Positions 1,388 to 27,851 of a stretch of 27,851 bases of DNA are shown piece after piece; positions within the stretch are counted from its first letter, which is position 1; every line of letters starts with the position of its first letter. The position numbers and the translations under genes are program-made. Origin of the DNA: a virus. The stretch covers positions 1 through 27,851 of IMG/VR virus record IMGVR_UViG_3300048597_000628; one strand, given 5' to 3'. The notes below the pieces were generated by a model, which was not told the DNA's origin, did not search any database, and saw only the letters and a list, made by a program, of their open reading frames with translations.

Positions 1388-2305
1388 CTACGCGTCTGCC
1401 AGCATCCCCCAGAAATCCCATTGGTTGTCGCCAAGGTACTTTAGCGTCACGACCGCACCCTGGCCGCGGGAGGCCAAGCTGAAGCCAGCGACCCCGTTTA
1501 GCGTGACGCCGGTGTCTTCGAGTAAGACGATCTGCCCTAAGGTCGTTCCCTGCCGGAAGTGAATCTCGCCGCCGACCGGAAAGGTGCTGCCGAAAGCCGG
1601 CACATAGACTGAGACGGCACCGTCGCCATAGGTGACGCGAACATAGGTGCCGGCCCAGGCGGCATCGATCTCGGTGATGGCACTGTCAATCTCTGGCCCC
1701 AGCGGCACGTAGGGTGCCGGCTCCACCATGAGGGCCTCGTAGACAGGAGCGCCCTCAATCTCCTTGGCAGGATCGAAGGATTCCGCTGCTCCCGTCGTAT
1801 GCGGGATCTTCACCAGCCAGACGCCGGAGCCCAACACCCGGATGACATCGTAGTAGGCATAGGCCGTGGCTGTCGCATAGATCCCGCGCCACAACATGCC
1901 CTGCGGCCTTGAGATCAGCAGCTGGTAGACGGGCTCGCCACTGATCACGAGGTTCGGATCGAAGCTGGCGCCGCTCGTATGCTGCAGCCTCACCACATAG
2001 GCCGCGTTGTCGTGGGTGACGACGTCATTCCTTGTATAGAGTGTCTCTGCCGCCCAACTCCCCCGCGCGTTGAAGGCCGCGACCGGCAGCAACAACGGCC
2101 CGATGGCGCTGCCATCTGACAAGTGCACCGTGAAGGTCGAACCGGTCGAAGTGACATTTGCAATGCTAATGGCTTCCGGCGGAGTATCCTCGAGCGCCGA
2201 TACCCGCTGATCCAGCCCATGGAAGTTGCCGTCGACCTGCTCAGCTAACAGATCCTCGGCGATCCCCGACCCCCAGGGACCGGACGTGCGATAGACGAGT
2301 GGCAT
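1388..2305 (-). CDS. distal tail fibre / receptor-binding candidate with two internal repeats
   Basis: A 305-aa protein that is the last structural gene before the lysis cassette, where siphoviruses usually encode receptor-binding or tail-tip fibres. The start is the ATG at 2303-2305, with AGGA 8 bases upstream. The N-terminus (about 1-40) is a short helical attachment-like region containing AEQVDGNFHGLDQRV, a pattern I associate with tail fibre N-termini. Two diverged repeats of about 57 residues follow (about 78-134 and 138-196). Each reads roughly G-x-W/Y, an aromatic-rich part with D-V-V/I, then H-T-(S/T)-G-A, S-F-D-P and P-V-Y-x-L. The C-terminal part (about 200-305) is Gly/Val-rich and looks beta-stranded. 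The repeats resemble small carbohydrate-binding modules, but the ligand is unknown. No enzymatic motif is seen. Confidence 0.65.
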   Translation of the reverse strand: MPLVYRTSGPWGSGIAEDLLAEQVDGNFHGLDQRVSALEDTPPEAISIANVTSTGSTFTVHLSDGSAIGPLLLPVAAFNARGSWAAETLYTRNDVVTHDNAAYVVRLQHTSGASFDPNLVISGEPVYQLLISRPQGMLWRGIYATATAYAYYDVIRVLGSGVWLVKIPHTTGAAESFDPAKEIEGAPVYEALMVEPAPYVPLGPEIDSAITEIDAAWAGTYVRVTYGDGAVSVYVPAFGSTFPVGGEIHFRQGTTLGQIVLLEDTGVTLNGVAGFSLASRGQGAVVTLKYLGDNQWDFWGMLADA

Positions 2306-3218: not shown

Positions 3219-4907
3219 TCACGGAGCTTCGAGATCAATGGTCTTCGAGACAGCGACGGGCTGGACGGCAAGCCGATAGTCGGTCTGGAAGGGGCCACCT
3301 TTCAGGGGCTTCAGCGTCAGGTCGATCTGGGTCGGCGTCCGTGACAAGGCTGCCGCTGCCGCCGTCACCGATCCCCAGTCGAGGTTGACGACCTGCCACT
3401 GGTCACCGAAGTCATTATATAATGACAACGCGTCGATCACGGTCTCCGGCGCCATGTTGAAGAAGTCGGTGCCATCATAGCCGTCCCCGACTATTGCAGG
3501 CGGGGAATAGACCACGTCACTGGTCACAAAGCCGATCTGGCCTCCATCGGTCTTCTGATACCCCGGTGTCACGTACCCCTCGGCCCAGACCGGATCGCCG
3601 GCTACGGGCGCAACATTGCTACCCTTACCGATGGTGCATCCCATGACAATGCGGGTGCCGGATTGACCGGTATCGCCATTGAGATAGAGCGTGTAACCCG
3701 CAACCTTGCCGATGGCCGCGCCACCCGGAAGCCGGGGATCGGCAATCGACACATTCTTCCGGCAGGACAGGCCAAGGCCATGCTCAAGGGTGGTCTCGAC
3801 AGTGATCTCGACGGCGCGGGCTCGCGACAGAAGCTGGGCGCGGGCCAGGGCCACCAGGTAGGAGATGCTCTTCAACCCTCGGTCGGTCGGAAAGAAGGAC
3901 CGTCGGCGAACATCGCGAATGGGCGCCAGGCCTCCGGGATCGATTGGCTGATCGAGGTCTTCAGACTGAAGGGCAATGGTGATTGTCTCTTCATCCGTCG
4001 CGTCACTCAGTATCTCTTGGGTGTCGGCCGATACCTCGAAGGCAAGTGTTTCGACCAGCGTGCGCTCGACCTCGTACTTGACGCTGGTGGATTGAACCAG
4101 CGTGATGGCCGGCCACTTGATGTACTGACCGGTGATGGTCTTGGTTGTGTAATACTGGATGCCGAAAGCCGGAACATTGGCCTCGCAGCGGCAGGGACCG
4201 AAGGTCCAGCCGGCACCGATCGCATCGCCTTCCTTGGGCCAATCGTCCAGCAAGCCTTGCGACGTCAGGCTCTTGACCTTCTTGTCATCAAACAGCCGGG
4301 CAATGTCCTTGCTGATGTCGACGATGCCACTGGCAACTTGCGTCCACTGGCAGGTCGCCTCGATCCGCACCCTCCGCGCCGGCGGTCCCCTGTAGGCAAT
4401 CGAGATCCCGTCGACGAAGATGTTACCGCCGAGATCGATGGTGCCGTCTTCGCCCGCATTGAGGTCGGTCGTCGTCACCGAATGCGTGACACGATCCGTG
4501 TGCCAGAGCATGGGACGGGCTTCCAGCACGACATCCGGGTCCTCCCGCATCTCACCGGCAATCCACAAGGGATCGTAGAAGGGAAAGACCCGCATGCCCG
4601 CGGCAACCGTCTTCTTGCGGGCGTCGAAGTCGGAAGGCCGGGCCACAAAGTTCAGGGTGATGACCTCCTCACGGATGTTGGTCGGGATCCCGACCATGCG
4701 GCCATGGAACAGCGCCACACCATCCTTGCCGAACCAACACCAGCGCTTGCGCCCTGGTTTGAGCAGGCCAATCCTCGGATTGCGGATCTCCACGTTGAGG
4801 GTTGCGAACTCACCTTCCAGATGCGACAGCTCGAAAGCAAAGACAAATTCGTCGACTCGGTCGACGAAGGCATCGCCGCCATCGACCCAGGCAAAGGAGA
4901 AGGCCAT
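3219..4907 (-). CDS. tail-tip / baseplate hub-like protein
   Basis: A 562-aa protein. The start is the ATG at 4905-4907, preceded by a perfect AGGAGG seven bases upstream that overlaps the end of the preceding gene; a TTG two codons earlier is too close to it. The N-terminal 90 residues (for example ELSHLEGEFATLNVEIRNP and GKDGVALFHGRMVGIP) resemble the first beta domain of tail hub proteins (gp27/gpD/VgrG-like). The middle is mixed, and around residue 380 there is a second hub-like section (AVEITVETTLEHGLGLSCRK). Lying two genes after the tape measure, it occupies the place of the distal hub/tip that caps the tube and carries the fibres. The exact family is not certain. Long antisense open frames on the plus strand here are treated as shadows. 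Confidence 0.75.
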   Translation of the reverse strand: MAFSFAWVDGGDAFVDRVDEFVFAFELSHLEGEFATLNVEIRNPRIGLLKPGRKRWCWFGKDGVALFHGRMVGIPTNIREEVITLNFVARPSDFDARKKTVAAGMRVFPFYDPLWIAGEMREDPDVVLEARPMLWHTDRVTHSVTTTDLNAGEDGTIDLGGNIFVDGISIAYRGPPARRVRIEATCQWTQVASGIVDISKDIARLFDDKKVKSLTSQGLLDDWPKEGDAIGAGWTFGPCRCEANVPAFGIQYYTTKTITGQYIKWPAITLVQSTSVKYEVERTLVETLAFEVSADTQEILSDATDEETITIALQSEDLDQPIDPGGLAPIRDVRRRSFFPTDRGLKSISYLVALARAQLLSRARAVEITVETTLEHGLGLSCRKNVSIADPRLPGGAAIGKVAGYTLYLNGDTGQSGTRIVMGCTIGKGSNVAPVAGDPVWAEGYVTPGYQKTDGGQIGFVTSDVVYSPPAIVGDGYDGTDFFNMAPETVIDALSLYNDFGDQWQVVNLDWGSVTAAAAALSRTPTQIDLTLKPLKGGPFQTDYRLAVQPVAVSKTIDLEAP

Positions 4908-4909
4908 GG

Positions 4910-5338
4910 TCAAACCTCCTCGAGCTCGAGCGTCCAGCTGGTGGCTGCCCCGTACTCATCCTTCTCCATCGTGAACCCCACGATCTGCATGATGAGTTGC
5001 GGGCGATAGAAGATGAAGCTCCCCTCGTTTCGTTGCGAACCTGCGACGACAGGCTTCGTCGGCGTGTCCGTGGACGGACAGCAGAGTTCGGCCACGCAGC
5101 TCACGGTCAAGACCTGCCCCGGCCAGATGCCATCAAGCGCCGGTGCCTGCTGGTCGCTGCAGCGGATGATCGAGCGGTACTTGCGGAACTGCACCTGCGA
5201 CAGGTCGACCAGCGAGCCATTGACCGTGCGCCGCTGGCTGCCAGCAGCCTCGATCGGTTGCAGAGTCTGAGTGAGACCGCGAGCCGAATAGGATGGCACG
5301 CCGATGCCAGCAAGGACGAGGACAGATTCGCTGGACAT
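4910..5338 (-). CDS. phage tail protein (distal tail candidate)
   Basis: A 142-aa protein starting at the ATG at 5336-5338, four bases after the tape-measure stop. The sequence has a predicted beta-rich core with several cysteines (SIIRCSDQQAPALDG, LTVSCVAELCCP) and ends in a strand pair (TSWTLELEEV). In siphoviruses the gene straight after the tape measure usually encodes the distal tail protein or a minor tail-tip protein that joins tube to hub. That assignment rests on position; I recall similar unnamed proteins from rhizobial phages but no named family. Its tail carries the ribosome-binding site of the hub gene. Confidence 0.7.
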   Translation of the reverse strand: MSSESVLVLAGIGVPSYSARGLTQTLQPIEAAGSQRRTVNGSLVDLSQVQFRKYRSIIRCSDQQAPALDGIWPGQVLTVSCVAELCCPSTDTPTKPVVAGSQRNEGSFIFYRPQLIMQIVGFTMEKDEYGAATSWTLELEEV

Positions 5339-5341
5339 GAC

Positions 5342-8149
5342 TCAGGCCCCGTACCAGCCGGGCTTTCGACCGAGTGTTTTTGTCCTGCGGGCCGTTGCAA
5401 AGCGAACCAGTCGCTCAGCCGTTTCATCGGGCGCGAAGAGATCGGCGAAGCGCTCGTTGCCAATGACGAGATCGAAACTCTTGCCTGGAAGCGAACTTCT
5501 GCCCGCCGTCGGGATAGCAGGCGCCAGAATGGGCCGCGGCGGCAGCATCGAACGATTGAATCCCTCGACCAGCCCACCAAGCGCAAACTTCGGGACATTG
5601 TTCATCCGCGATGGATTCATGCGAAGACCATTGATCGCCCGCAGGAAGTCAACGCCATATTGTCTTACGGCAGCGGCGCGCACCACGAACTCACCTCTGG
5701 ACAGGTAAGCCGGAATGCTGTCGGAGGTCGACGTCCCAGGCCCCGAGACATAGCCACCGCGGGCAAAGCCGTCGCCATCACTGCCACCGCTACCCTGTGC
5801 CCGAAGCCGGGCTGCCTCAGCAATGGCTCGACGGATTGAAGCCAGGATGGCCGCAATCGCACGCTCGATGCTTGCTGCTGCCCGGCCAACGGCTTCGGCC
5901 ACGCCTGCAAATCCTGCCTCCGCGATGGCCCGGATCCCCTGCATGATCTGCTCGATCTGAGCAGATGTCTCGACAAAGGGCTGGACGAGCGCTGCAGCGA
6001 CCGCTGCGGCACTCTCGATGTCGCCGGCAATCTGGGCTGCACGCGCGATTGCTGCCCGGATCGCCTCGGCACTGGCAACGACAGCCTGGGTCGCACCCGA
6101 CCAGGCCTGCAGCACAAGATCCGCAAGACCCGGCAGAACCGTGGTCGCACCACTGACAATCCCGTCCCAAATCGGCTGGATTGTTGCGGCAACCGCGGTG
6201 GCTGCCTCGGTGATTGCCGCCCACGTTTGCGAGGCGGCCGCGAAGAGTCCGTCCCGCGCCAGACTGACCGTCTCGGTGATACCGGCCCAGACGCCGGTGA
6301 CAACCATGATCAGCGCCGACCGGGCGTCTGATACAACAGTCGTGACACCGATCCAGACATCACGCCAGGCTGTCGTAAGTCCCGTCCATGCCGTCTGTGA
6401 CGCGGTCGTGAGGCCGGTCCAGACATCCGAGACGACTGTCACCAGACCGCCGAGCGCCGTCTCGGCAATGAGGGTGAGGCCATCCCAGATATCGGAGAAG
6501 ATCGTCGTCAACCCGCTGAGCGCTGCCGATGCTCCCGCCACGATCTCGTCCCAGAAGCCATAGATCAGAGCGCCAAGCGCAATCACCCCTACTGCGATCA
6601 ATCCCTGCGGTGAGAAGAAGGCCGCCAGCATCGGTAGCATGCGCAGTACGGTGCCAATGCCACTGGCAATCACCGGGAACAGCCGGGAGAGCACGGTACC
6701 CACAGGCCCGATCAGCCTCAGGGCATTGACGAAGAGCATGAAAGACTGGGCTCCAACCTTGACCACCGCAAACAGCAGTCGGAAGATGCCAAGCAGCTTC
6801 AGGATTGTCGCCCCGACGAGGAGCTGATCGCCGGTCAGCGCCGTGCCGAAGAGCGTGTTGAAGGCTGAAGCGACCAGCCCCGCCTGATCGCGGATCACCT
6901 GGAAGGCCGGGATGAGCACATTGACGAAGGTATCCCTGACCGCCAGGGCCGCATCGCGGAGGTCGAGCAGCCATTTATTGGAAACGGAATCATCCGGCGC
7001 CTGCGACAGGATGCTGACCAGGTCGACAATAATCGAGGACAGGCTCGATGCCAGTTGCTGCAGGACCGCACTGATTCGGTCCGAATTGGTCGCCAGGGCA
7101 TTCAGGATCGCATCGGTTGCCTGGATGATGGCAGGTGCCACAAGGGTTGCGAACTTGTTGGCATATTGCTCGAACAGGAAGCCGACGAAGGCCAGTTCAT
7201 CGGCGGCACGGCCCGCAATGGACGTTGCCTCATTGGTGGCCGTCAACCCCAGGGCCTCGATCTGTTTCTGGTACTTCTCGATGCCTTTCGCACCCAGATT
7301 GAGAAACGGAATCAGCTTGGGGCCAATCCGCTTGCCGAAGAGCTCGACCGACAATTGGGTCTTCTGTGCGCCATCTTCCATGCTGGCAAACTGGGTGGCC
7401 ACCGCCCGGAAGGCATCGACGGGCAGGATCTCTTGGCCGGGCTTCAACCCGACGTTTTTCAGGATGCGCGAGAGCGTCCGAGCACTTTCCGAGAGCTTGG
7501 CCGTCTCGCCAGCCCCCTGGCGAACAACCTGGCCATAATTGCTGAAGCCAGAGATGACCTTGACGGTGCTGCTCCCGGCCTCATCCATCGAACTCGAAAA
7601 CCGGACATTGCCGGATGTCGCCTTGGCCGTCGTACCTTGAAGCTCCTTCAGGGCCTCCCCGATGCTGATGAATCCTCGGCTGAGTGTCCCACTATCGATG
7701 CCGGAGGCCGTTGCTGCCGCCTGGAAGGTCTGGAGCTGGGTGACGGTGACGCCGAGGCTTGAGGCGAGATCGCCCAGGTCATCGACCCGGTTCAGGCTGT
7801 TCCGGATGAAGGCGCCCGCCGCAAAGGCGGCCCCCGTCACGGCCGCTGCAAAGATCGTGACCCTGGCCGAGGTCGACGCAAAGGCGCTGCCAACATCGGA
7901 AAGGCCACGGGTGAGCCCCGCAAAGCTCGTCGCCACCCGGCCACCGGCCGTTCGGAGATCGGCGAAGGACGTCCGGAGTCTGCCGAACTGCGCTGCAAAA
8001 TTGTTCCCGATATTGACCCGGCCAAAGGCCTGCTCGAGCTTCCGGGCCGAGCGCTCGCCTTCCTCGCCGAGGCTCCGGAACTGGCGCAGGATCTCGTCGC
8101 CACCCTCGAGGCGGATCGACTGGTTGATGACATTGCGACCGCTGGCCAT
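5342..8149 (-). CDS. tail length tape measure protein
   Basis: A 935-aa protein that sets tail length and is ejected ahead of the DNA. The ATG start at 8147-8149 overlaps the previous stop by ATGA; a TTG one codon earlier is possible. The N-terminal part is charged and helical, and a small membrane-like segment lies near residues 98-115. A long hydrophobic block (about 445-535) is typical of tape measures that insert into the host membrane. Next come ten consecutive 11-residue repeats (about 543-652), then Ala-rich helices. Near residue 800 is the motif GGYVSGPGTSTSDSIPAYLS followed by RGEFVVRA, which recurs near the C-terminus of many tape measures. At about 0.15 nm per residue the length predicts a tail of roughly 140 nm, which is an estimate from the family rule. 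Confidence 0.95.
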   Translation of the reverse strand: MASGRNVINQSIRLEGGDEILRQFRSLGEEGERSARKLEQAFGRVNIGNNFAAQFGRLRTSFADLRTAGGRVATSFAGLTRGLSDVGSAFASTSARVTIFAAAVTGAAFAAGAFIRNSLNRVDDLGDLASSLGVTVTQLQTFQAAATASGIDSGTLSRGFISIGEALKELQGTTAKATSGNVRFSSSMDEAGSSTVKVISGFSNYGQVVRQGAGETAKLSESARTLSRILKNVGLKPGQEILPVDAFRAVATQFASMEDGAQKTQLSVELFGKRIGPKLIPFLNLGAKGIEKYQKQIEALGLTATNEATSIAGRAADELAFVGFLFEQYANKFATLVAPAIIQATDAILNALATNSDRISAVLQQLASSLSSIIVDLVSILSQAPDDSVSNKWLLDLRDAALAVRDTFVNVLIPAFQVIRDQAGLVASAFNTLFGTALTGDQLLVGATILKLLGIFRLLFAVVKVGAQSFMLFVNALRLIGPVGTVLSRLFPVIASGIGTVLRMLPMLAAFFSPQGLIAVGVIALGALIYGFWDEIVAGASAALSGLTTIFSDIWDGLTLIAETALGGLVTVVSDVWTGLTTASQTAWTGLTTAWRDVWIGVTTVVSDARSALIMVVTGVWAGITETVSLARDGLFAAASQTWAAITEAATAVAATIQPIWDGIVSGATTVLPGLADLVLQAWSGATQAVVASAEAIRAAIARAAQIAGDIESAAAVAAALVQPFVETSAQIEQIMQGIRAIAEAGFAGVAEAVGRAAASIERAIAAILASIRRAIAEAARLRAQGSGGSDGDGFARGGYVSGPGTSTSDSIPAYLSRGEFVVRAAAVRQYGVDFLRAINGLRMNPSRMNNVPKFALGGLVEGFNRSMLPPRPILAPAIPTAGRSSLPGKSFDLVIGNERFADLFAPDETAERLVRFATARRTKTLGRKPGWYGA
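6194..6523 (-). repeat. ten tandem 11-residue repeats inside the tape measure
   Basis: The protein can be cut exactly every 11 residues for ten units. Examples are ALSGLTTIFSD, IWDGLTLIAET, VWTGLTTASQT, AWTGLTTAWRD, VWIGVTTVVSD and TWAAITEAATA. A Trp recurs at position 2 and a G/A-(L/I/V)-T pattern at positions 4-6. Regular 11-residue spacing of aromatic residues is a known property of some tape measures and fits a helical rod. Confidence 0.85.
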
Positions 8150-8787
8150 CAAGCCCCCCGGAAGTTCTGCGCATAAAGTTCAGGCAGCCTATCGCGGGCG
8201 CGACGGACGGCTTTTGTGATGTTGAGCCGCTTGCGAATCGTGACGCTGTCGATCCCGACGAACAACGGCACTGAGGTCGTCCGCACACCGCCCCGGGCTG
8301 CCGCCCGGAGCGCTGACAGGGTCACCTTGGCGCGCTTGCCCGTCTTGGTCGCCCGGGTCTTGGCCACCAGCAGTGCCGCCTTCCCCGGCCGTTTCACATA
8401 CTGCAGCGGGCCAACTTCCTTCTGATAGCGCTCCGGTGTCATGCGATACCGGCCAGAGCGCTTCGGCGTCGAGAGTAACGGCACCCACATGCGGGGTCGC
8501 CCGCGGAGCGTGGCGCCCTCCTCGAAGACGCCGGCATAGGGGATCTTGTGAAAGATCTGGGCCGCGGCCTTCAGGCTGGTGCCCTTCTTTGGATAGACAT
8601 TGAGGCGAAGTGCCTTGGTGAACCTGTTGCCCAGGCCCGCGCTCAGGATATTGGCGCGCGCGTCGGACTTGGCCAGTTCGCCCGCTGCCGCGACGGCCGC
8701 CTGCGCTGCCTCCTCGATTGCCTGAGCAGGAACCAGAAATACGCGCTCGAAGATCCCTGGTTCAGAGCGATAGTGGATCCTGCTCAT
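8149..8787 (-). CDS. DUF6441-like phage protein (neck or minor tail)
   Basis: A 212-aa basic protein starting at the ATG at 8785-8787, with AGAGGA eight bases upstream; a longer open frame reaching 8865 lacks support. The central motif IPYAGVFEEGATLRGRPRMW followed by VPL is what I remember as the signature of the DUF6441 phage family. The YAGVFEEGA part also recalls the (Y/F)xxxxExG(T/A) motif of HK97 gp10-type neck or minor tail proteins. N-terminal helices (about 18-55) precede it, and the C-terminus is Lys/Arg-rich. It overlaps the tape measure by ATGA, so both are probably made together. The plus-strand oxidoreductase gene interrupts the operon just upstream of it. Confidence 0.7.
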   Translation of the reverse strand: MSRIHYRSEPGIFERVFLVPAQAIEEAAQAAVAAAGELAKSDARANILSAGLGNRFTKALRLNVYPKKGTSLKAAAQIFHKIPYAGVFEEGATLRGRPRMWVPLLSTPKRSGRYRMTPERYQKEVGPLQYVKRPGKAALLVAKTRATKTGKRAKVTLSALRAAARGGVRTTSVPLFVGIDSVTIRKRLNITKAVRRARDRLPELYAQNFRGA

Positions 8788-8935
8788 CGCTAAATTCCTC
8801 TCGACGATTACATGCTCCCATGCAGCCGCAGATTCTCCGCTGCCATTCAAAGGCGGTGGAGCCAACCTGCGAGAGACAGCTGGTCATCGTTGGCATTTGC
8901 GAAAGGAGGGGTGATTGGCCTAACTTGGAGGTTTG

Positions 8936-10943: not shown

Positions 10944-11717
10944 TCAGGCTGCAGCGATCACGGCTGCCGTTGCAGCTGACGTCGCCGTTGCGGATCCCGC
11001 GGCATTGGTGGCGGTGATGGAGATACTCAGGGCATCGCCGACGTCCCCGGTGGCCGGCGTATAGGTGGCACCAGTAGCGCCAGAGATGTTCACGCCGGCG
11101 TTCTTCCACTGGTAGGTGAAGACGGGGGTGCCACTCCACTCGCCAACAATGGCTACCAGCGGCTCGCCCTCCTGGGCGATGCCGGCAATCGACGGCAGGA
11201 CAGTATTGACGGGGACGCTCTCACCGAGGGCGGTGATAGTCCCGAAAGACCCACCTGCGATCAGGACGTCACCCGTGAGCTCGATGGTCCCCCACTCATC
11301 AGACAGCAGCGAGATCGAGGACGAGGGCACAAACTCGACTGCCGGGAAGACCCACTCGTATTTCGGACCCACTTCATTGGTTCCGGTAAACTTGAGGGAC
11401 CCCTTGATCGCGTTGCTGTCGAAGATTTCGGTGATGCTCTGGCCGCCGACGATGGCATTGGTGCCGAGAACCGCCAATGCAATATTGTCGCGCGTCCACT
11501 CGTCAAGCACCAGGCGGACGGTGCCAGACTTTTGGATCACGATGGACTTGTCCTTGGTGCGCACACCTTCGCGTGACGAGAAGTGGTCAAGTTTCTCGAG
11601 TTCCGGGGTAAACTCGAACTCCGTGCAGTTGCCCATGTCGGCATAGGCACCAGCACCATCCTTCTGGAAGGAGACGATCCCCTTGCCGACGGTGTAGTTG
11701 TTGATCGATGCAGTCAT
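10944..11717 (-). CDS. major tail tube protein with C-terminal Ig-like domain
   Basis: A 257-aa protein starting at the ATG at 11715-11717. Residues 1 to about 168 have the layout of a siphovirus tail tube subunit, rich in beta strands, with a conserved-looking core (EFTPELEKLDHFSS, KSGTVRLVLDEWTRDNIALA, and a closing strand near GTIELTGDVLIAG). Residues about 173-255 form a bacterial Ig-like domain with the typical pattern EWSGTPVFTYQWKNAG, ISGATGATYTPATGDVGD and ITATNAAGSATA. Such appended Ig domains, as on lambda gpV, decorate the outside of the tail and are thought to help bind cell-surface sugars weakly. The chaperone gene follows directly. Confidence 0.9.
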   Translation of the reverse strand: MTASINNYTVGKGIVSFQKDGAGAYADMGNCTEFEFTPELEKLDHFSSREGVRTKDKSIVIQKSGTVRLVLDEWTRDNIALAVLGTNAIVGGQSITEIFDSNAIKGSLKFTGTNEVGPKYEWVFPAVEFVPSSSISLLSDEWGTIELTGDVLIAGGSFGTITALGESVPVNTVLPSIAGIAQEGEPLVAIVGEWSGTPVFTYQWKNAGVNISGATGATYTPATGDVGDALSISITATNAAGSATATSAATAAVIAAA

Positions 11718-11802: not shown

Positions 11803-12252
11803 TCAGAGCTCGTCCGGCCGCAGGATGTAGGAGAAGGTGAAGGAAAGGCCCATCTCGGCTTCCATATTGCGGCCGCGGGCGAGGCCGGTAGCGCAGCCCT
11901 CGTAGCGGACGTCGCCATTGCTGCCGACAATCCCGGCCAGTTCTGGATCCGTCAGCACCGCCTTGAGGAAGGCCGCCCTGAATCCATTGATGGCCGTGCC
12001 GACATCTTCCGGCTTGGCGCCCAGCATCAGGTAGATCTCCGGGGTCATGCCGACCCGCCGCGGGGCATTGGGCCGCCGCGCGTTCCCTGAAGGATCTGCA
12101 TCATCGGCCGCCTCGTCAGCGTCAAGAATCACGATACAGGGCCGCTGCCGATCGCTGATTTCGTCCTTGTTACGAAAGGCTGCGACAAGACCGGGCACAG
12201 TCTGAGCGATGCCCAGCAATCGAACCAGGATCAGTTCCCGCCTGTCGGTCAT
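11803..12252 (-). CDS. tail terminator / minor tail protein candidate
   Basis: A 149-aa protein starting at the ATG at 12250-12252, overlapping the previous stop by ATGA. It begins with a helix (ELILVRLLGIAQTVPGLVAA), followed by a strand (PCIVILDADEAAD), a Pro/Arg-rich loop, a helix-rich middle (GTAINGFRAAFLKAVL) and a C-terminal strand (EMGLSFTFSYIL). This alpha/beta layout and the position immediately before the tail tube fit a tail terminator of the gpU type, which caps the finished tube. I infer this mainly from gene order; no diagnostic motif is visible. Confidence 0.6.
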   Translation of the reverse strand: MTDRRELILVRLLGIAQTVPGLVAAFRNKDEISDRQRPCIVILDADEAADDADPSGNARRPNAPRRVGMTPEIYLMLGAKPEDVGTAINGFRAAFLKAVLTDPELAGIVGSNGDVRYEGCATGLARGRNMEAEMGLSFTFSYILRPDEL

Positions 12253-12596
12253 GCGGTGTCCTCGACCAAGAACAGGTAGAGTTCACCCTCAGTCTCACCA
12301 GACGGCGCCGGTTTCGGCATCGTCGCCTTGACTTGCCAGGCCCGATCTCCCAGCACCAGCCGGGCGCCTTCCAGATCGGCCGCGTCAAATCCCTTCTCCG
12401 CCAGATCTGCCACACGCAGGGTCACGGCTGGCCGGATGGTCTTGACGTCGATGGACGAGGCATCAGCGACTTCGACGCCGGTGGTCTGGTCGATTACGGT
12501 CAGCTCGACTCTGTCGCCATAGAGGCAGTTGAAAGTCGCCTGCACCCCGAATACCCGATAGATCGGGGCATAGAGGAGCGATGCGAAATCGATCAT
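12249..12596 (-). CDS. head-tail connector / head-closure candidate
   Basis: A protein of about 115 aa. I take the ATG at 12594-12596 (MIDFASLLYAPIYRVFGVQA); a TTG at 12606-12608 would add four residues. After a short helix it reads as a beta barrel (ATFNCLYGDRVELTVIDQTT, VTLRVADLAE, GARLVLGDRAWQVKAT) and closes with a strand (GELYLFLVED). Small beta-barrel proteins in this place, between head genes and the tail terminator, are typically head-closure or attachment proteins of the lambda FII or SPP1 gp16 kind. The family is not recognised with certainty. It overlaps the next gene by four bases. Confidence 0.6.
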   Translation of the reverse strand: MIDFASLLYAPIYRVFGVQATFNCLYGDRVELTVIDQTTGVEVADASSIDVKTIRPAVTLRVADLAEKGFDAADLEGARLVLGDRAWQVKATMPKPAPSGETEGELYLFLVEDTA

Positions 12597-12636
12597 GCTG
12601 ATACTCAAAGGTCCCAGAAGAAGGCGGCAGAACGCT

Positions 12637-12807
12637 TCAGGTATTAATCACAGTCCTGCGTCCGGTCGGCAGGGCCATCGGCAGATCGGTCACACCAGAT
12701 ATGATCATAAGCCGAACACTGGACAGGCGTGTCTGTGTTTCAGTCGCTGGCGAACTTGTCTCCGCCACGACAAGGTTCGACGTGGTCACCCGGATCGTAT
12801 CGGCCAT
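12637..12807 (-). CDS. very small phage protein, unknown function
   Basis: A 56-aa reading frame from the ATG at 12805-12807, which overlaps the TGA of the preceding LamG-like gene (ATGA), to the TGA at 12637-12639. It reads MADTIRVTTSNLVVAETS and ends with TGRRTVINT, with alternating hydrophobic residues that suggest two or three beta strands. The tight start-stop overlap, identical to other joins in this operon, and the fact that it otherwise leaves a 210-base hole, are the evidence that it is real. It could be a small virion or connector accessory. Confidence 0.6.
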   Translation of the reverse strand: MADTIRVTTSNLVVAETSSPATETQTRLSSVRLMIISGVTDLPMALPTGRRTVINT

Positions 12808-13919
12808 CAGACAAACTCCACGCCAAACTCCGACGCCTCGATGTTGGCCTTTGACCAGGCGGCACCGGTTGCCGGGTTGAGCCCGTAAAAATCATCGGCC
12901 TTCACGTAGGCCGTTGTCGCGGCCTTGGCAGCACCATTGCGGTCCGTGCCGCCGCTATCCTTCAGCCTGTTGCGCCAGGCTTGCGTGCCGCTGTCGATCC
13001 TGGCGACACTCTCGACCTGAACGCCGATGATGCTGGCAGGTGTCCAGCCAATGCCGGTGTTTTTGTAGTAATCAATCCGACCGGAGGTATTCTGCTCAAC
13101 GTAGGATACATCATCATCCTGAGTTGCATCATCGACCGCCACAAAGTTGGCACCCGCATTCGGCACCCATTGCGACAGCGCCCCATCGGCGGTCGGTAGC
13201 ACCCGGCGTAGACGATGTTCGCCCGGCAGATGGCCGGTGAAGTCAGTGCCACTGTCATCCCAGATGATCAGGTCGTCGATCCACAGCAGATTGCCGCCAT
13301 TGCCGGCCGTGCTGTTCGAATTGCAGCCGGCAATCACGACGCGGTCGAAGCTGTCGATGTCGCCAGTCACGGCATCCGAAGTATCTCCATTGACGACCGT
13401 CTGCTCCGTGGCCTCGACGCCATCGACCCACATCCGGGCGTTTCCACTGGTCGTGTTGACCTGCAGGGCCGTCTCGACGTGATGCCAGTTCCCATCATTG
13501 ATGCCGCGCGTCCTGGTGGGAGGCCGACCGGAGACCATCTGGCCGGTGGCCTGCGCGTCGTCAAACCGGGTGTGATAGAGGCCATTGCTGCCGGCGAAGC
13601 CGAAGTCATAGCCCCAGTGGCTGTAGAAGCGATCCGGTGTTCCGTTCCGCAGCTGCAGGATGGGCCGCGTGCCAGTGACCGAGAAGCCGGTCAGCAGGCA
13701 GCGGACGTGATAGGCCATCCGCAAGGTACTCCCCGCGGCCGGCGCCTGCTTCAAGAGCCGGATATGCCCGGTCGAGAGCGCCGCCGCGCGTGCCGCACCG
13801 CCGCCAAAGCGTCCCGCCGCCGGCTCATAGGTGCCGCCACCGCTAATATAGCCACCGGCGGCCCGATACTTCGCCGTGGTGTCATAGCCATCGAAGTGCT
13901 CGCAGAAGAGCAGCGCCAT
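12807..13919 (-). CDS. LamG/ConA-like lectin-domain virion protein (second paralogue)
   Basis: A 370-aa protein, clearly a paralogue of the gene before it: both begin MALLF(A/C)E(G/H)FDG. Both share W-H-H-V-E (Trp145 here), T-T-S-G, W-V-D-G-V, G-D-T-S-D-A, D-D-x-I-I-W-D-D, H-R-x-R-x-V-L-P and V-D-D-x-x-x-D-x-D-x-S-Y. The first 230 residues have the look of a concanavalin A/LamG jelly roll (NWHHVETALQ, ARMWVDGVEA, LLWIDDLIIWDD), a fold used to bind sugars or surface proteins. The C-terminal 140 residues form a second conserved part of unknown role. The two genes share one base (TGATG). They are probably virion adhesins or decorations; the exact location on the particle is unknown. Confidence 0.8.
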   Translation of the reverse strand: MALLFCEHFDGYDTTAKYRAAGGYISGGGTYEPAAGRFGGGAARAAALSTGHIRLLKQAPAAGSTLRMAYHVRCLLTGFSVTGTRPILQLRNGTPDRFYSHWGYDFGFAGSNGLYHTRFDDAQATGQMVSGRPPTRTRGINDGNWHHVETALQVNTTSGNARMWVDGVEATEQTVVNGDTSDAVTGDIDSFDRVVIAGCNSNSTAGNGGNLLWIDDLIIWDDSGTDFTGHLPGEHRLRRVLPTADGALSQWVPNAGANFVAVDDATQDDDVSYVEQNTSGRIDYYKNTGIGWTPASIIGVQVESVARIDSGTQAWRNRLKDSGGTDRNGAAKAATTAYVKADDFYGLNPATGAAWSKANIEASEFGVEFV

Positions 13920-15010
13920 CAGGTCACCCGCTCGAAGCCGACCTCAAGTCCGGCCAGCAGCTTGGCGCAGGTCCAGCGGGAACCGGTGAGAGGGTCGCGG
14001 ATCAATTCCAGGCGCTCGGCCCGATACATCGGGTCCACGTTCATGGTCGTGCCATTGAGGGTGAGACCGCCGCGCGTTGCCTTGATCCGACCGGTGTGGG
14101 CTAGGAGACCTTCCCGACGTACCAGGGCCTCGGCATAGACACCGTAGATCTCCGTGGGGTTGAAGGGGATGGTGTTGAACCGGAACATGTCTTCGCCGAC
14201 TGCCGTGGCGTAATTGTAGGATGTATCCTTGTCGCGAATGACGTCATCGACGTTCTCGACGTTCGTACCCGACAGCGGCGCGAAATCATTCACGCTGCCA
14301 TTGGTGTCCGGAAGGACCGTGCGGATGCGATGCCGGTCGGTGAGGCGGCCTGCGAATTCGCTGCCCTCATCATCCCAGATGATGACATCATCCATGTAGG
14401 TGCCGGTATTCCCGCTGTTCGCACAGGACCCACAGAGCAGCACATGATCCATCACGGAGAAATCACCGCTTGCTGCGTCGCTGGTGTCGCCCGTGAAGCT
14501 GATGTCGGCAACACCATCTACCCAGGCCCGGACCGTGCCAGAGGTTGTCCCGATCAAAAACTCAACCTCGACGTGGTGCCAGGCATTGTCACCCAGCGGG
14601 GTGGTGCCGATTGCGGCCTGGCCAGGGCTTGACGCATCATCGAACTTCCGGACACTCAGATACACATTGGGCTGGGTTCCAAGAAGATACAGGTTCCACC
14701 AGCGGGTTGTAGCGTTGAGCGCCCCGATAAGGTTGAAAAACGGCCGCCAGACCGTGGTGCTGAAGACGGCCGCACCACTGCCGAAGGTCCGGATCCAGAA
14801 GGCGGTCCGGATGAGAGATCCCACCGGCGGCCGGGTCAGGCCGAAGGCCATGCCGCCAGAAAGATCAGACCCAACAAGGCATCCATCTCCCCAGTTGCTG
14901 AGGGTGTTCGCGGATCCCAGTGCCGCACCGGAATTGATGCTGCGTGTCGCATTTGCGAGATCGCTGCCGCTGGACCAGCCGTCAAAGCCTTCGGCAAAGA
15001 GCAACGCCAT
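13919..15010 (-). CDS. LamG/ConA-like lectin-domain virion protein (first paralogue)
   Basis: A 363-aa protein starting one base inside the stop of the collagen-like fibre gene (TGATG). The N-terminal part resembles a LamG-like jelly roll: [12 protein letters not shown], then NAWHHVEVEFLIGTTSG (Trp144), VRAWVDGVAD and TYMDDVIIWDDEGSEF. The C-terminal part begins around HRIRTVLPD and ends near residue 363. It is homologous over nearly its whole length to the following gene, with the strongest match in the second half, so the pair probably arose by tandem duplication and then diverged. A role in binding host surface glycans is inferred from the fold and from the neighbouring fibre gene. Confidence 0.8.
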   Translation of the reverse strand: MALLFAEGFDGWSSGSDLANATRSINSGAALGSANTLSNWGDGCLVGSDLSGGMAFGLTRPPVGSLIRTAFWIRTFGSGAAVFSTTVWRPFFNLIGALNATTRWWNLYLLGTQPNVYLSVRKFDDASSPGQAAIGTTPLGDNAWHHVEVEFLIGTTSGTVRAWVDGVADISFTGDTSDAASGDFSVMDHVLLCGSCANSGNTGTYMDDVIIWDDEGSEFAGRLTDRHRIRTVLPDTNGSVNDFAPLSGTNVENVDDVIRDKDTSYNYATAVGEDMFRFNTIPFNPTEIYGVYAEALVRREGLLAHTGRIKATRGGLTLNGTTMNVDPMYRAERLELIRDPLTGSRWTCAKLLAGLEVGFERVT

Positions 15011-16782
15011 CAGTGGACCTGCCCTGTTGCCTCGAGGGTGAAGAAGAGGTTGGCGAGTGTCGCATCCGGCGATCCTGGTGCCACGAGTTCCAGATGGTCA
15101 CCGCTTGCCATGGTGAAGCCTGCGATCGACACATAGCTCGCAACCGTGCCTGCAGCTGAAAAGCGCACCGTGCCGACGCTCACACCGTTCTTCTGGAGAT
15201 CAAAGTCCGCCTGTGCTGCTGCTGCCGTCTTGGCCTTGATCACCGAGCCGGCCATCGATGCCGGAAACGACAGCGCTTCATTCGCCAGGAAGGCAAACAC
15301 GACGCTGCTTGCTCCCGGCGCCCCGCCGAAAGTGCCTAAGAACTTCGGCCTTCGCGCCTTGAGCGGATAGACGTAGACCTTGTCGCCGTTGTCCTGCAAC
15401 ACGATCACACGATCATCGACCCCGAAGTCGTGGCTCACACTGCCGGGCAGCACGAGATTCGCGCCGTGCGTCATTGTCGCCGCGACATCGAAGATCAGCA
15501 TCGCGTAGCGGCCGTCGACGGCTGAGCTCCAGTCGATGTCCGTGATCGGTCCTGTTCCGGCGGTGATGTGGAAGTGGCTACCCGGCCCGAGCGTGATGGT
15601 GCCCGCGAGGGGAACACTTGTACCCTTCATCGTGATGGCAAGCGGTCCCTCCGTGACCCCGCCATTGCGGTAGATCAGTCCCGCTGACGTCTGCCAGAGA
15701 TCACCGTCCGCCGGTGATGACGGAGCAATGCCTGTATTGCCGCCCAGGTTGATCAGTGCCCCACCCGACACAGACGGATTAAACGTCTTCTTCGCGGTGA
15801 AGGTCTCGGGCTTGTTGATAAAGCTCGTGAAATACCACGCACTGGACAGATAGATAAGAAGGTTCGTGCCGCCGGATGCGTAGACATCGCCGTGTGCCGG
15901 CGATGATGGTGCGGTGCCCCCAGGAATGCGAAACGATGCGGACGTGCTGTTGCCGGGTTTGAAGTCCACATGGCCGGTCAAGGCACCGCCGCTAAGTGCA
16001 AGATAGGTCGCTGCGAGGTGGGCGATCAGGTCGCTCTGATCGGTGATCGTGCCACCAAGATCCCCCCAGTTGCTGGCGCCGCCAGAAGCCGGGTTCACCC
16101 ATTGAGTGTTGTAGTTCGTGGCGTCGATCTTCGCGAGAATCTGTCCGGTCGTGCCCCCGATCGGAACACCGACACCGTTGATACCATCAGTACCGTCGGC
16201 ACCAGCCGGGCCCATTGGTCCAGCAGCACCGGTGGCTCCAGCTGGACCCGCTGCGCCATCGGCACCCGGAGGGCCGGTCGGACCGGCAGGACCTGCTGGT
16301 CCCACTGGACCGGAAGCGCCCGGTGCTCCGTCTGCACCTGCGGGTCCCGCGGGCCCCTCTGGACCCGGAGGTCCAGCAACACCTGGAGCACCATCTGCGC
16401 CTGCCGGCCCCGCAGGTCCAGGTGCACCATCACTTCCTGCTGGGCCGGTGGGGCCGGGTGGACCCGGAGGTCCTGCAATACCCTGGGCACCAACGGCACC
16501 CGAGGGGCCTGTCGGACCCTGCAGACCCTGAGGTCCAGACGGCCCTTCTGGTCCCATCGGTCCAGGCGGGCCTGCATTGCCTGTGGGCCCCTGTGGCCCG
16601 GTAGCGCCTGTCGCACCATCAAGGCCGTTCGCGCCATCTGCACCCGCAGGCCCGGCCGGACCTTGGGGACCAGGTGGACCTTCTGGGCCATCGGCACCGA
16701 CCGGACCCTGTGCGCCAGGCAAAGCAATTTCAACCGTGGCAATGGATGCCGGAATAACAACCTCGATCACCTCAAGCGTCAT
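15010..16782 (-). CDS. collagen-like phage fibre protein
   Basis: A 590-aa protein starting at the ATG at 16780-16782, 11 bases inside the end of the previous gene. A short 22-residue N-terminal head ([20 protein letters not shown]) is followed by about 60 uninterrupted Gly-X-Y triplets (residues 23-202), a collagen triple helix expected to form a trimeric stalk. Next is a fibre linker ([20 protein letters not shown]), then repeated segments with [15 protein letters not shown] and [14 protein letters not shown]. The C-terminal beta domain (about 470-590, ending [12 protein letters not shown]) is Val/Ala/Ser-rich and probably forms the trimeric knob. Collagen stalks are established in phage fibres. 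Here the gene sits between head and connector genes, so it could be a head fibre as well as a side tail fibre. Confidence 0.9.
16177..16716 (-). repeat. Gly-X-Y collagen repeat tract
   Basis: Sixty consecutive triplets, each starting with Gly, such as GPP, GPA, GAD and GPQ, without a break. The codons (mainly GGx CCx) make a DNA tract of 540 bases with strong 9-base periodicity. Length variation by slippage or recombination is likely in relatives. The Pro/Gly-rich open frames on the plus strand here are the antisense of this tract. Confidence 0.9.
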
Positions 16783-17122
16783 CGTTCACACCCTGAACGA
16801 CAATGAGGCATCCCGACAGGATGGTGAACTCATCGCCACCGAATCGCCGCTCGATGTCGTAGCGAGAGCGAAGCTTGCCGACGGCAAAGAGGCGCGTCTC
16901 CTCCGGCGTGAGCTTCAATGTCACCTCGCCCGTCGCCGGCATCGGCATCTGCAATGAGCCGTCTGCCGTCGTCTTGCGGATTGTCGAGGTCATCGTCTCC
17001 GCGATGAAGACGATCTCAGAGCCAGTCAGGTCAACCGGATTGCCAGCACCTTCCTTGAACCGGAACAGCCGCTCGTAGCTATTGCCGCGTCGGAGGCCAG
17101 CAAGATCGTAGTGCACTGACAT
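16772..17122 (-). CDS. small phage baseplate-like protein (BppU N-terminal-like)
   Basis: A 116-aa protein starting at the ATG at 17120-17122, with GGAG seven bases upstream. A longer frame to 17260 adds 46 residues that look unlike a phage protein. The sequence [20 protein letters not shown], then [31 protein letters not shown] and [17 protein letters not shown], resembles the N-terminal beta-sandwich of upper baseplate proteins that anchor fibres (RG-x-S/T-x-x-x-x-F and P-V/I-D-L/I-T-G motifs). It directly precedes and overlaps the collagen fibre gene, so an adaptor holding that fibre is a reasonable inference. The family match is by memory. Confidence 0.65.
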
Positions 17123-17315
17123 GGGAGATCTCCGACACCGTTTACGAGCCGAAAAGACAGCCTCTGGACCAGGGCTCATCTTGACGACAGCGATGTTCGT
17201 GTGTGGCGGCGCCAGAATTGGCAGCGACTGATCGTCTGCGAAGGCGCCAGCAAGGAACAAGAAGGTGAGTCAGATTGATTTGGGCAGAGACGGCGTGACC
17301 AGACCTACCGATATC

Positions 17316-17867: not shown

Positions 17868-18203
17868 CTAGAAGCTGCCGTTGAGTCGAACACGCCCGGT
17901 GGTCTCATCGGTCCCACTGCCAACGGCGCCGAGTGCAACCCCAATCAGCGTATTGTCGGTCGCCGTCTTGGTCGCCCGCTTGTTGGTGTTGTCCCAGTAG
18001 ACCTTGTCGCCAACGGCCCAGGCCTGAGAGCTCACCTTGTTGATGTCTATGACGCCAACAGTGAGGGCCTCAACTGGTTCGCCGGAGGCTGCATCATGGG
18101 CAGCAATGCCAAAGATGGCGCCGACAAGCATCCCCGCGCCCGACGCGACAGCGGCTGGGGCCGTGAGCGTGATCGTGTGGCCAGACTGGATATAGTTCTT
18201 CAT
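17868..18203 (-). CDS. DUF2190 capsid decoration (cement) protein
   Basis: A 111-aa protein starting at the ATG at 18201-18203, with GGGA a few bases upstream. The sequence is characteristic of DUF2190: MKNYIQSGHTITLTAPAAVA, GMLVGAIFGIAAHDAASGEP, GVIDINKVSSQAWAVGDKVY, WDNTNKRATKT, and a closing GRVRLNG strand. Family members form small beta barrels, some shown to trimerise on the capsid surface and stabilise the expanded head. Older database entries call them RecA/RadA-like by mistake. It follows the major capsid gene, the normal order for a lambda D-like function. Confidence 0.93.
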   Translation of the reverse strand: MKNYIQSGHTITLTAPAAVASGAGMLVGAIFGIAAHDAASGEPVEALTVGVIDINKVSSQAWAVGDKVYWDNTNKRATKTATDNTLIGVALGAVGSGTDETTGRVRLNGSF

Positions 18204-26327: not shown

Positions 26328-26586
26328 ACGCAGATAGCCCTGTTGCACAGAAGCCCGCAGCACATGCGGGCTTCATGCGTTCATTGACCGCATTGAAGAA
26401 GCGCCGCAGCCCGTGGGACCTGCAGAGAGAAACCGCAGTGAAGATCAATCCGATGATCAGATTGTCGCTGAGCGATGCCGCAAGACCGAAGAGCGGAAAC
26501 ACCAGAAGCTGCGTGATGACCGCGACGGCAAATCCCACCATGATGTTCGCGACCGACTCCACGAGCGACATTATGCGCGTCTGCAT
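26320..26586 (-). CDS. DUF7220-like small membrane protein
   Basis: An 88-aa protein whose ATG (26584-26586) shares one base with the stop of the methyltransferase gene (TGATG). Two hydrophobic helices are visible, about 10-35 (ANIMVGFAVAVITQLLVFPL) and about 40-55 (NLIIGLIFTAVSL), with the conserved-looking MSLVES start and FPLFGLAASLSDN turn that I associate with DUF7220. The function of the family is unknown. The last 20 or so residues (MKPACAAGFCATGLSAFK) look unlike the family and are encoded partly by a 10-bp hairpin, so the coding end may have been extended. Confidence 0.75.
   Translation of the reverse strand: MQTRIMSLVESVANIMVGFAVAVITQLLVFPLFGLAASLSDNLIIGLIFTAVSLCRSHGLRRFFNAVNERMKPACAAGFCATGLSAFK
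26350..26374. terminator. strong hairpin, bidirectional terminator candidate
   Basis: A perfect 10-bp inverted repeat with a 5-base loop (GAAGCCCGCA-GCACA-TGCGGGCTTC). It starts 22 bases after the DUF3489 stop on the plus strand and lies inside the last codons of the convergent DUF7220 gene. No T-run follows on either strand, so termination may be weak or protein-assisted. It suits insulation of two convergent units. Confidence 0.55.
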
Positions 26587-27851
26587 CAGGCGGCGTTCTT
26601 CGCAAGGCGTTCAGACTTCAGATCGCCATAGGTCCGGTCCTCGCCATCGAGAACCGCCACTCCCCCCGTTAGATTCTGCCAGCGCTCAACAATCACATCG
26701 ACATACTTCGGATCGAGTTCGAGGAGCCTCGCCGACCGACCGGTTCGTTCGGCAGCAATCAGCGTGGTGCCGGAGCCCCCGAACAGATCCAGCACGATGT
26801 CCCGGCTCTTGCTGCTGTTGCGGATCGCCCGCTCGACCAGTTCAACCGGTTTCATGGTGGGGTGCAGGTCATTGACCCGCGGCTTGTCCACGAACCAGAC
26901 GTCGCCCTGGTCACGCGCACCACACCAGAAATGGTCAGCACCCTGCTTCCATCCATAGAGGATCGGTTCGTACTGGCGCTGGTAGTCTGCGCGTCCGAGC
27001 GTGAAGGTGTTCTTGGCCCAGATGACAAAGGTCGACCACTTGCCACCGGCGTCGGTGAAGGCCTTCTGCAGGGTGTGAAGCTCGGACGAGCTCATGCAGA
27101 TGTAGCAGCCGCCCTTCGTCACCGTCAGCATGTTGACGCAGGAGTCGTAGAGGAACTGATAGAATCCGTCGCCCAGGGCATCGTTTAGGATGCGGCGGTC
27201 TTTCCCCTGCAGCTTCCCCTTGGCACCGTTGCCGTAGTCCACGTTGTAGGGCGGATCGGTGAAGACCATGTCAGCTAGCTGGCCATCCATCAGGCGTTCG
27301 ACATCTGAGAGGACGGTGGCGTCGCCACAGAGCAACCGATGGCTGCAGAGAATCCACAGGTCGCCTGGCCTGGAGACCGGCTCCGCGGGAACCTCAGGGA
27401 GCTCCCCCTCATCGGATTCCGCACTGGCATCGACGTCGATCCCGGCGAGGTAGCGCTCAAGGTCTTCAGCTCCGAATCCCAGGACATCAAGTTCGAAATC
27501 CGAGGCATCGAGGTCACGGACGAGGTTCGACAGTGCAACTTCATCCCAGCCTGCGTTGAGTGCCAGCTGATTGTCGGCAATGACCAGCGCCTTTCGCTGC
27601 GCCGCCGAAAGGTGCCCCAGGCGAATGACTGGAACTTCCCGCAGCTGAAGGCGTTTCGCAGCTTCGAGCCGGCCGTGCCCCGCAATGATCGTGCCATCCG
27701 CATCAACCAGGATCGGATTGGTCCAACCGAACTCGCGTATGCTCGCGGCGATCTGATCAACCTGGGCATCCGAATGCGTGCGCGGGTTGCCGGCAAATCC
27801 TGTCAAGGCGGTCACATCCACGCGCTCGAGGGCGTAGCTCTCGGGGATCAT
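26586..27851 (-). CDS. ParB-like / N6-adenine DNA methyltransferase fusion
   Basis: A 421-aa protein whose ATG is the last three bases of the window, so a start further upstream cannot be excluded. The N-terminal 135 residues form a ParB/Srx-like domain (NPRTHSDAQVDQIAASIREF and GTIIAGHGRLEAAKRL). The C-terminal part is a beta-class DNA methyltransferase: the catalytic DPPY at 199-202 (VFTDPPYNVDYG) precedes the AdoMet-binding FGGSG at 357-361, with HPTMKP at 330-335. DPPY enzymes methylate adenine N6, or sometimes cytosine N4, and the target is unknown. Such ParB-methyltransferase fusions are common in alphaproteobacterial prophages, where they may protect phage DNA from restriction or mark packaging sites. 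No restriction enzyme is seen. Confidence 0.93.
   Translation of the reverse strand: MIPESYALERVDVTALTGFAGNPRTHSDAQVDQIAASIREFGWTNPILVDADGTIIAGHGRLEAAKRLQLREVPVIRLGHLSAAQRKALVIADNQLALNAGWDEVALSNLVRDLDASDFELDVLGFGAEDLERYLAGIDVDASAESDEGELPEVPAEPVSRPGDLWILCSHRLLCGDATVLSDVERLMDGQLADMVFTDPPYNVDYGNGAKGKLQGKDRRILNDALGDGFYQFLYDSCVNMLTVTKGGCYICMSSSELHTLQKAFTDAGGKWSTFVIWAKNTFTLGRADYQRQYEPILYGWKQGADHFWCGARDQGDVWFVDKPRVNDLHPTMKPVELVERAIRNSSKSRDIVLDLFGGSGTTLIAAERTGRSARLLELDPKYVDVIVERWQNLTGGVAVLDGEDRTYGDLKSERLAKNAA

Follow-up and report, generated by a model that had tools for sequence, protein, structure and literature searches.

Where on the particle would a phage carry adhesins whose genes lie between its head and connector genes? 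This question is raised by the IMG/VR virus record IMGVR_UViG_3300048597_000628, all 27,851 bases of which were analysed as one window. Its structural genes, all on the minus strand, include a cassette of overlapping genes for a small adaptor, a fibre with a collagen-like stalk, two lectin-like proteins and a 56-amino-acid (aa) protein. An initial annotation proposed that this cassette may encode head or neck fibres that attach the particle to extracellular matrix, and saw in it the best candidate of the window for an undescribed particle structure. Here, comparison with related loci and structure prediction establish the gene set, the fold of the adaptor, its fixed site in a clade of prophages, the exchange of fibres at that site and the tail-fibre position of relatives elsewhere. 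We consider it moderately probable that the cassette is a side-fibre module resembling that of T5 p132, relocated to the junction of the head and tail modules and working with a separate tip fibre.

Gene set and its site in the clade

The four overlapping genes of the initial annotation were confirmed as open reading frames (ORFs) between capsid decoration and connector genes, and the order from decoration protein to connector is conserved in the clade. The 56-aa gene, which had been missed, is a fifth member of the set and overlaps its neighbour likewise; the other overlaps are TGATG at 15010 and 13919 and 11 bases at 16772/16782. The ratio of nonsynonymous to synonymous substitution (dN/dS) against the nearest relative, locus L087, is 0.09-0.15 for the cassette genes (0.09 for the 56-aa gene) and similar to that of capsid and connector genes, which indicates real genes under purifying selection. 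The adaptor starts at the ATG at 17122, and relatives begin at the corresponding ATG; a TTG at 17260 precedes this start codon. The lectin-like proteins 1 and 2 are paralogs with 38% identity.

The clade consists of Hyphomicrobiales prophages, including one of Aestuariivirga litoralis. In all 11 loci that have a related capsid protein (approximately 78-88% identity) and are informative for the site (L010-L013, L016, L033, L087, L098, L099, L101 and the window), the adaptor gene follows the cement gene, at times after inserted genes, and the fibres end at the connector in each of the four loci that reach it (window, L087, L011 and L099). The fibre part is exchanged: the collagen fibre and two lectin-like proteins are found in the window and L087, and the other loci have a 67-73-aa docking protein and different fibres, one of them with an S74 endosialidase-type chaperone domain. 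Such replacement behind one conserved adaptor (the S74 chaperone fibre and other tips in L011, L012, L013, L016 and L099) fits a host-range module. L099 belongs to the cultured Hyphomicrobiales strain A. litoralis KCTC 52945, whose prophage encodes a 550-aa tip fibre at its tail end, just as the window has its own separate tip fibre. We found no published work on Aestuariivirga prophages.

Compared across related prophages, the adaptor site is fixed within the clade, the fibres are exchangeable, and one prophage outside it lacks the cassette at that site. In this more distant prophage (G187, capsid 55-59% identical), the cement gene stops at 2404, the next gene starts at 2406, and the adaptor profile has no match in the genome; at its tail end, a J-like protein is encoded together with a DUF2793-type fibre instead. 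An apparent lack of the adaptor downstream of the cement gene in L007 is uninformative, since the contig ends approximately 680 bases later in a host-like gene. Names read from the translations describe this gene (L007:5400-6070) as host-like with a TAT signal, and a pair inserted between adaptor and fibre in L087 (L087:5110-7129) as an Rrf2-type regulator and an NnrS-like membrane protein. In L101, approximately 2.6 kb (5423-7980) separate cement and adaptor.

Adaptor fold and docking repeats

By sequence, the only library match of the adaptor was phrog_1084, a family annotated as having unknown function; no Pfam model matched, including that of BppU, and a family profile found none among PDB sequences. 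A model built on an alignment of 16 relatives (predicted local distance difference test score, pLDDT, 90) matched tail-tip chains of DT57C/T5 and baseplate chains of 80alpha, NF5 and TP901-1 in a Foldseek search of the PDB, with E values of 4e-5 to 7e-4 and template modelling scores relative to the query (TMq) of 0.53-0.73. The TP901-1 chains were taken to be BppU, and the remaining PDB matches are antibody-type Ig domains. The adaptor is therefore predicted to be an Ig-like beta-sandwich within the approximately 110-140 residues expected of such domains, matching known adaptor chains, and the earlier name BppU-like is apt at the level of the modelled fold, not by sequence. Among the PDB matches listed, all phage chains belong to baseplates or tail tips, and neither the gene transfer agent of R. 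capsulatus (RcGTA) nor any other head spike is represented.

In T5, p132 forms a dodecameric collar with a fold related to the BppU N-terminus, onto which the lateral fibres are grafted, and unassigned density was ascribed to approximately 50 N-terminal fibre residues, probably intertwined with the p132 ring (PMC10038345). A comparable coupling may be present here. The gene directly after the adaptor opens with two to four VIEV-like strands approximately 9-11 residues apart, followed by collagen-like GPxG. At least two [VI][EKD][VIL] motifs occur within the first 45 residues in 19 of 27 adaptor loci, which are partly non-independent, versus 1.7% of 1,382 background ORFs taken from the same sequences, spurious ORFs included. 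This pairing of adaptor and repeats holds beside capsid genes and beside tail genes alike. The VIEV-type strands may insert into the adaptor, and the conserved neighbourhood together with the repeats supports a pairing of fibre and adaptor.

Lectin-like proteins and fibre tip

The collagen stalk of the initial annotation was borne out by an uninterrupted Gly-X-Y run (Table 1), whereas the lectin-like character of the two following proteins was only weakly supported. One copy reaches 20.3 bits with Laminin_G_2 (cut-off 22.9) and the other has no such match; thus no LamG or concanavalin-type domain exceeds the curated cut-off in either protein, and a profile search against the PDB gave sub-threshold LamG matches only. 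A low-confidence model (pLDDT 48) resembles jelly-roll carbohydrate-binding and lyase domains, with a template modelling score relative to the target (TMt) of 0.55 to an X122 domain and to a PL36 alginate lyase. As many unrelated jelly-roll binding domains match, the likeness is generic and carries no information on function. The case for sugar binding, which consists of the LamG match, this model and membership of phrog_2448, is thin. Attachment to extracellular matrix, as first proposed, found no support: Gly-X-Y shafts are common in phage fibres, as the matches to phrog tail-fibre families and the collagen-like proteins of prophages illustrate, and the identified hosts are Aestuariivirga.

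Relatives at tail-fibre positions

Outside the clade, most alignable relatives of the adaptor, the tip domain and the lectin-like proteins occupy tail-fibre positions. Adaptor relatives lie downstream of J-like genes in L133, L103/L134 and L105, downstream of the baseplate in Microcystis phage yong2, and downstream of a gpI-like gene in L131 and L132, in a prophage taken as contractile-tailed from names given by sequence and not by family search. The fibre tip domain is 63% identical in L144, 41% in Mesorhizobium phage Cp1R7A-A1 and 37% in L150. Tip domain and lectin-like proteins follow a J/megatron gene in L144, and the same order, immediate or almost so, is seen in L150 and L145; lectin-like protein 1 is 36% identical to the L144 protein downstream of J. 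In Cp1R7A-A1 they follow a DUF2793-type tail fibre, and in Brevundimonas phage Fanboy a lectin-like relative comes closely after the tip attachment gene. L146, L148 and L151 have the tail-tip genes of the window with lectin-like relatives after the tip fibre, and no adaptor was seen there. Apparent collagen matches in L144, L145, L150 and L006 proved to be the C-terminal tip domain and not collagen repeats; with matches limited to that domain, the fibres of L144, L145 and L150 have another N-terminal anchor.

The same adaptor and fibre (84-86%) recur in L097 next to capsid genes of another type, with a portal of 45% and with an S49-type protease encoded separately from the major capsid protein. 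Apart from a short portal match, its DNA similarity to the window begins within the adaptor gene. The difference in capsid type argues against a capsid-specific anchor, and the cassette looks, from these sequences, like a mobile side-fibre unit at the junction of the head module and the neck/tail module.

Adaptor relatives were also seen in chromosomal stretches in which no phage genes were recognised (L135, L136, L138 and L143) or beside DUF2793-like genes (L137 and L142). These short adaptor-fibre sets may represent remnants of phages or the fibre islands of gene transfer agents.

A tail side-fibre module as the favoured explanation

In the explanation that we favour, the 116-aa Ig-like adaptor would form a collar ring, like T5 p132 and TP901-1 BppU, into which the first fibre residues with their repeated strands would thread. 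The collagen triple helix would be the shaft, and the C-terminal tip domain and the two lectin-like proteins may bind surface polysaccharide reversibly. The most likely place for the ring is the tail close to the tip, next to the central fibre, as in T5, where a collar for lateral fibres is combined with a central fibre. The genes themselves are found where a head module meets a neck/tail module that differs from it in ancestry, and the fibre part is exchanged among relatives. The adaptor fold, the separate adaptor gene and the location of relatives favour the tail.

Several points weigh against this explanation. The cassette adjoins head and neck genes, a position that all of the clade shares. 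Lactococcal phages use this adaptor fold for their neck collar (PMC6669499), and thus the fold cannot settle the place. No tail-tip protein of the window was identified as a partner for the adaptor, and the window has no J, gpI or p140-type protein, with which the adaptor is associated elsewhere. In addition, adaptor and lectin-like pair were not seen together in tail-fibre loci and are combined only in window-type phages. The genes alone do not decide between tail and neck.

The nearest form of the head or neck fibres first proposed is a neck collar with whiskers similar to the lactococcal neck passage structure, that is, a ring round the portal or head-tail connector from which lectin-tipped collagen fibres radiate as an accessory adhesion device. 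We regard this as possible but doubtful. It accords with the gene site, which in every one of the 11 informative clade loci lies between the cement gene and the gene for head-tail attachment, with the presence of a separate tail-tip fibre, and with a real precedent having the same adaptor fold: the neck passage structure has a predicted BppU-N base (PMC6669499), and in 936 phages its gene (nps) is upstream of mtp and immunogold labelling places the product at the neck (PMC4759559). However, most alignable relatives are at tail-fibre positions, and the BppU domain of the neck passage structure is fused to the fibre, while here it is encoded separately, as in T5. Gene order is also a poor predictor of place, since the neck gene of TP901-1 follows the baseplate genes (PMC4493119). 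The initial annotation had itself named a gene order that is standard for side tail fibres in the phage group as evidence against head or neck fibres; the order is indeed the rule within this clade, which by itself leaves the choice between tail and neck.

A broader form of this idea, which we put forward more tentatively still, is an alphaproteobacterial, and thus Gram-negative, clade that has a neck collar made of a stand-alone BppU/p132-type ring with exchangeable, lectin-tipped collagen-shaft fibres in addition to a tail-tip fibre. Adaptor and docking peptide would then serve unrelated phages as an interchangeable connection, whether at the tail tip, at a contractile baseplate or at the neck.

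Fibres on the capsid surface, like the head spikes of RcGTA or the head fibres of phi29, are improbable. The cassette adjoins the cement gene, the RcGTA head fibre likewise docks by a repeated hydrophobic N-terminus (PMC7296036), and a domain related to phrog_2647, a family annotated as head decoration, is present in fibre A of L011; but this domain is also found in tail-fibre families such as phrog_11518, and capsid anchoring is disfavoured both by the unrelated capsid type beside the same adaptor and fibre in L097 and by the baseplate and tail-tip chains among the listed matches of the adaptor fold. A literature search on collagen-like capsid spikes of siphophages found no papers. The reading of the set as an adhesion cassette is supported in its coherence, its unusual site and its separation from the tail-tip fibre (window, L087 and A. 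litoralis); binding to the capsid is not supported. Least probable of all are products outside the virion, such as polysaccharide-binding or polysaccharide-degrading proteins secreted at lysis or by the lysogen, for which the weak resemblance of the lectin-like model to alginate lyase and carbohydrate-binding jelly rolls and the host-like inserted genes in L087 and L007 are outweighed by a baseplate-fold adaptor and a fibre with docking peptide and shaft, encoded by overlapping genes within a structural operon.

Comparison with known systems

T5 p132 with the L-shaped fibre pb1 (LtfA/LtfB in DT57C) resembles the window in that the adaptor is one Ig-like domain, alike in size and fold, with a gene separate from that of the fibre, and in a side fibre that coexists with a central tip fibre. 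No sequence similarity was detected between the two systems, and the window differs in its collagen shaft and in that no partner of the T5 type (p140) was identified in it. Moreover, the T5 genes are in the tail-tip region, whereas those of the window clade lie at the neck/head border, between cement and head-tail attachment genes, and not in a tail-tip cluster after the tape measure gene. The adaptor fold is also shared with TP901-1 BppU/BppL and the baseplate fibres of S. aureus 80alpha. In those phages, longer proteins of the upper baseplate or fibre begin with the Ig-like domain; they are located at the tail tip, and their genes follow that of the tape measure.

The lactococcal neck passage structure (936, TP901-1) likewise has a BppU-N fold base and fibres with carbohydrate-binding tips, the latter weakly supported for the window, and its gene in 936 phages is upstream of the major tail protein gene, as in the window. 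It is one fused protein with a coiled-coil shaft from phages of Gram-positive hosts, versus a separate adaptor and collagen fibre here, and no sequence relation was detected; its place on the particle has been demonstrated, whereas the window is known from its genes. Pairs of a phrog_1084 adaptor and a VIEV/collagen fibre (L131-L134, L103, Rhizobium phage RHph_TM16 and Microcystis phage yong2) are homologous to the window in adaptor sequence and have the same docking repeats, but their recognisable neighbours are tail-fibre or baseplate genes and not capsid genes. RcGTA head spikes (base Rcc01079, fibre Rcc01080), which bind polysaccharide, are alphaproteobacterial like the window and combine a base ring with a fibre docked by its repeated hydrophobic N-terminus (PMC7296036). 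The RcGTA base is a jelly roll on capsid pentamers, in contrast to the predicted Ig-like fold of the adaptor.

Other features of the window

The gene order of the window is terminase, portal, fused protease/major capsid, cement, cassette, head-tail attachment candidate, tail-terminator candidate and major tail protein, followed by tape measure, tip genes, CBM5/12 fibre and lysis genes. The separate fibre of the initial annotation was confirmed at the tail end (Table 1).

Table 1. Coordinates of the cassette, its flanking genes and the separate tip fibre in the window
Feature	Coordinates	Strand	Description
Adaptor	16772-17122	-	116 aa; predicted BppU-N/T5 p132-type Ig-like fold; putative fibre adaptor/collar
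Collagen fibre	15010-16782	-	
Proposed docking peptide	16714-16782	-	Fibre residues 1-23; two VIEV-type repeats; putative docking
Collagen-like shaft	16168-16716	-	61 Gly-X-Y triplets, residues 23-205; Pfam Collagen E 9e-27
Fibre C-terminal tip domain	15031-15336	-	Residues ~483-583; common to tail fibres of other phages
Lectin-like protein 1	13919-15010	-	phrog_2448
Lectin-like protein 2	12807-13919	-	phrog_2448, weak Laminin_G_2; 91% identical in L087
56-aa protein	12637-12807	-	Last gene of overlapping set; TGATG overlap; 91% identical in L087
Capsid cement/decoration protein	17868-18203	-	Upstream flank; Phage_cement_2 E 2e-30; phrog_122 (head decoration) E 6e-31
Head-tail attachment candidate	12249-12608	-	Downstream flank; PF05354 E 1e-4, just under cut-off; kept in L011, L099, L087
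Separate tail-tip fibre	1388-2305	-	CBM_5_12; homologs at tail end of A. litoralis, L087, L146, L148, L151

The major tail protein (10944-11717) has a C-terminal Ig-like domain, another variable decoration of the surface, which the shorter 166-aa homologs in L011 and L099 lack. A DUF6441 protein (8149-8865) is encoded between the tail genes and the tape measure; a weakly similar protein (28-35%) directly after the cement/connector genes of distant relatives suggests rearrangement of neck genes. The tail tip (3219-5338) is minimal, with 142- and 564-aa proteins that lack clear family matches and no J-like protein or peptidase; its genes are common to L146, L148 and L151, where the larger protein has approximately 905-913 aa. 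Upstream of the terminase genes, a fusion of a ParB-nuclease-like domain and a DNA methyltransferase (26586-27851) is kept in many relatives.

Implications

The side-fibre structure is probably of a known kind and its gene position unusual; what had been put forward as a candidate for an undescribed particle structure has an adaptor with the fold of known side-fibre collars (T5 p132 and BppU; PMC10038345). As A. litoralis KCTC 52945 carries such a prophage in a cultured strain, both the location of the fibres and their swapping are directly testable. VIEV-type repeats and collagen in the gene after the adaptor provide a short, testable signature of the coupling. Gene order is widely used to guess the place of phage adhesins, and if side fibres of the tail-tip type have their fixed gene site at the head/neck border, annotators would miss or misplace the main exchangeable adhesin. 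The p132 collar had been presented as a hallmark restricted to T5-like phages (PMC10038345); the p132/BppU-type collar would now extend beyond them to many alphaproteobacterial prophages, of both siphophage-like and contractile-tail types.

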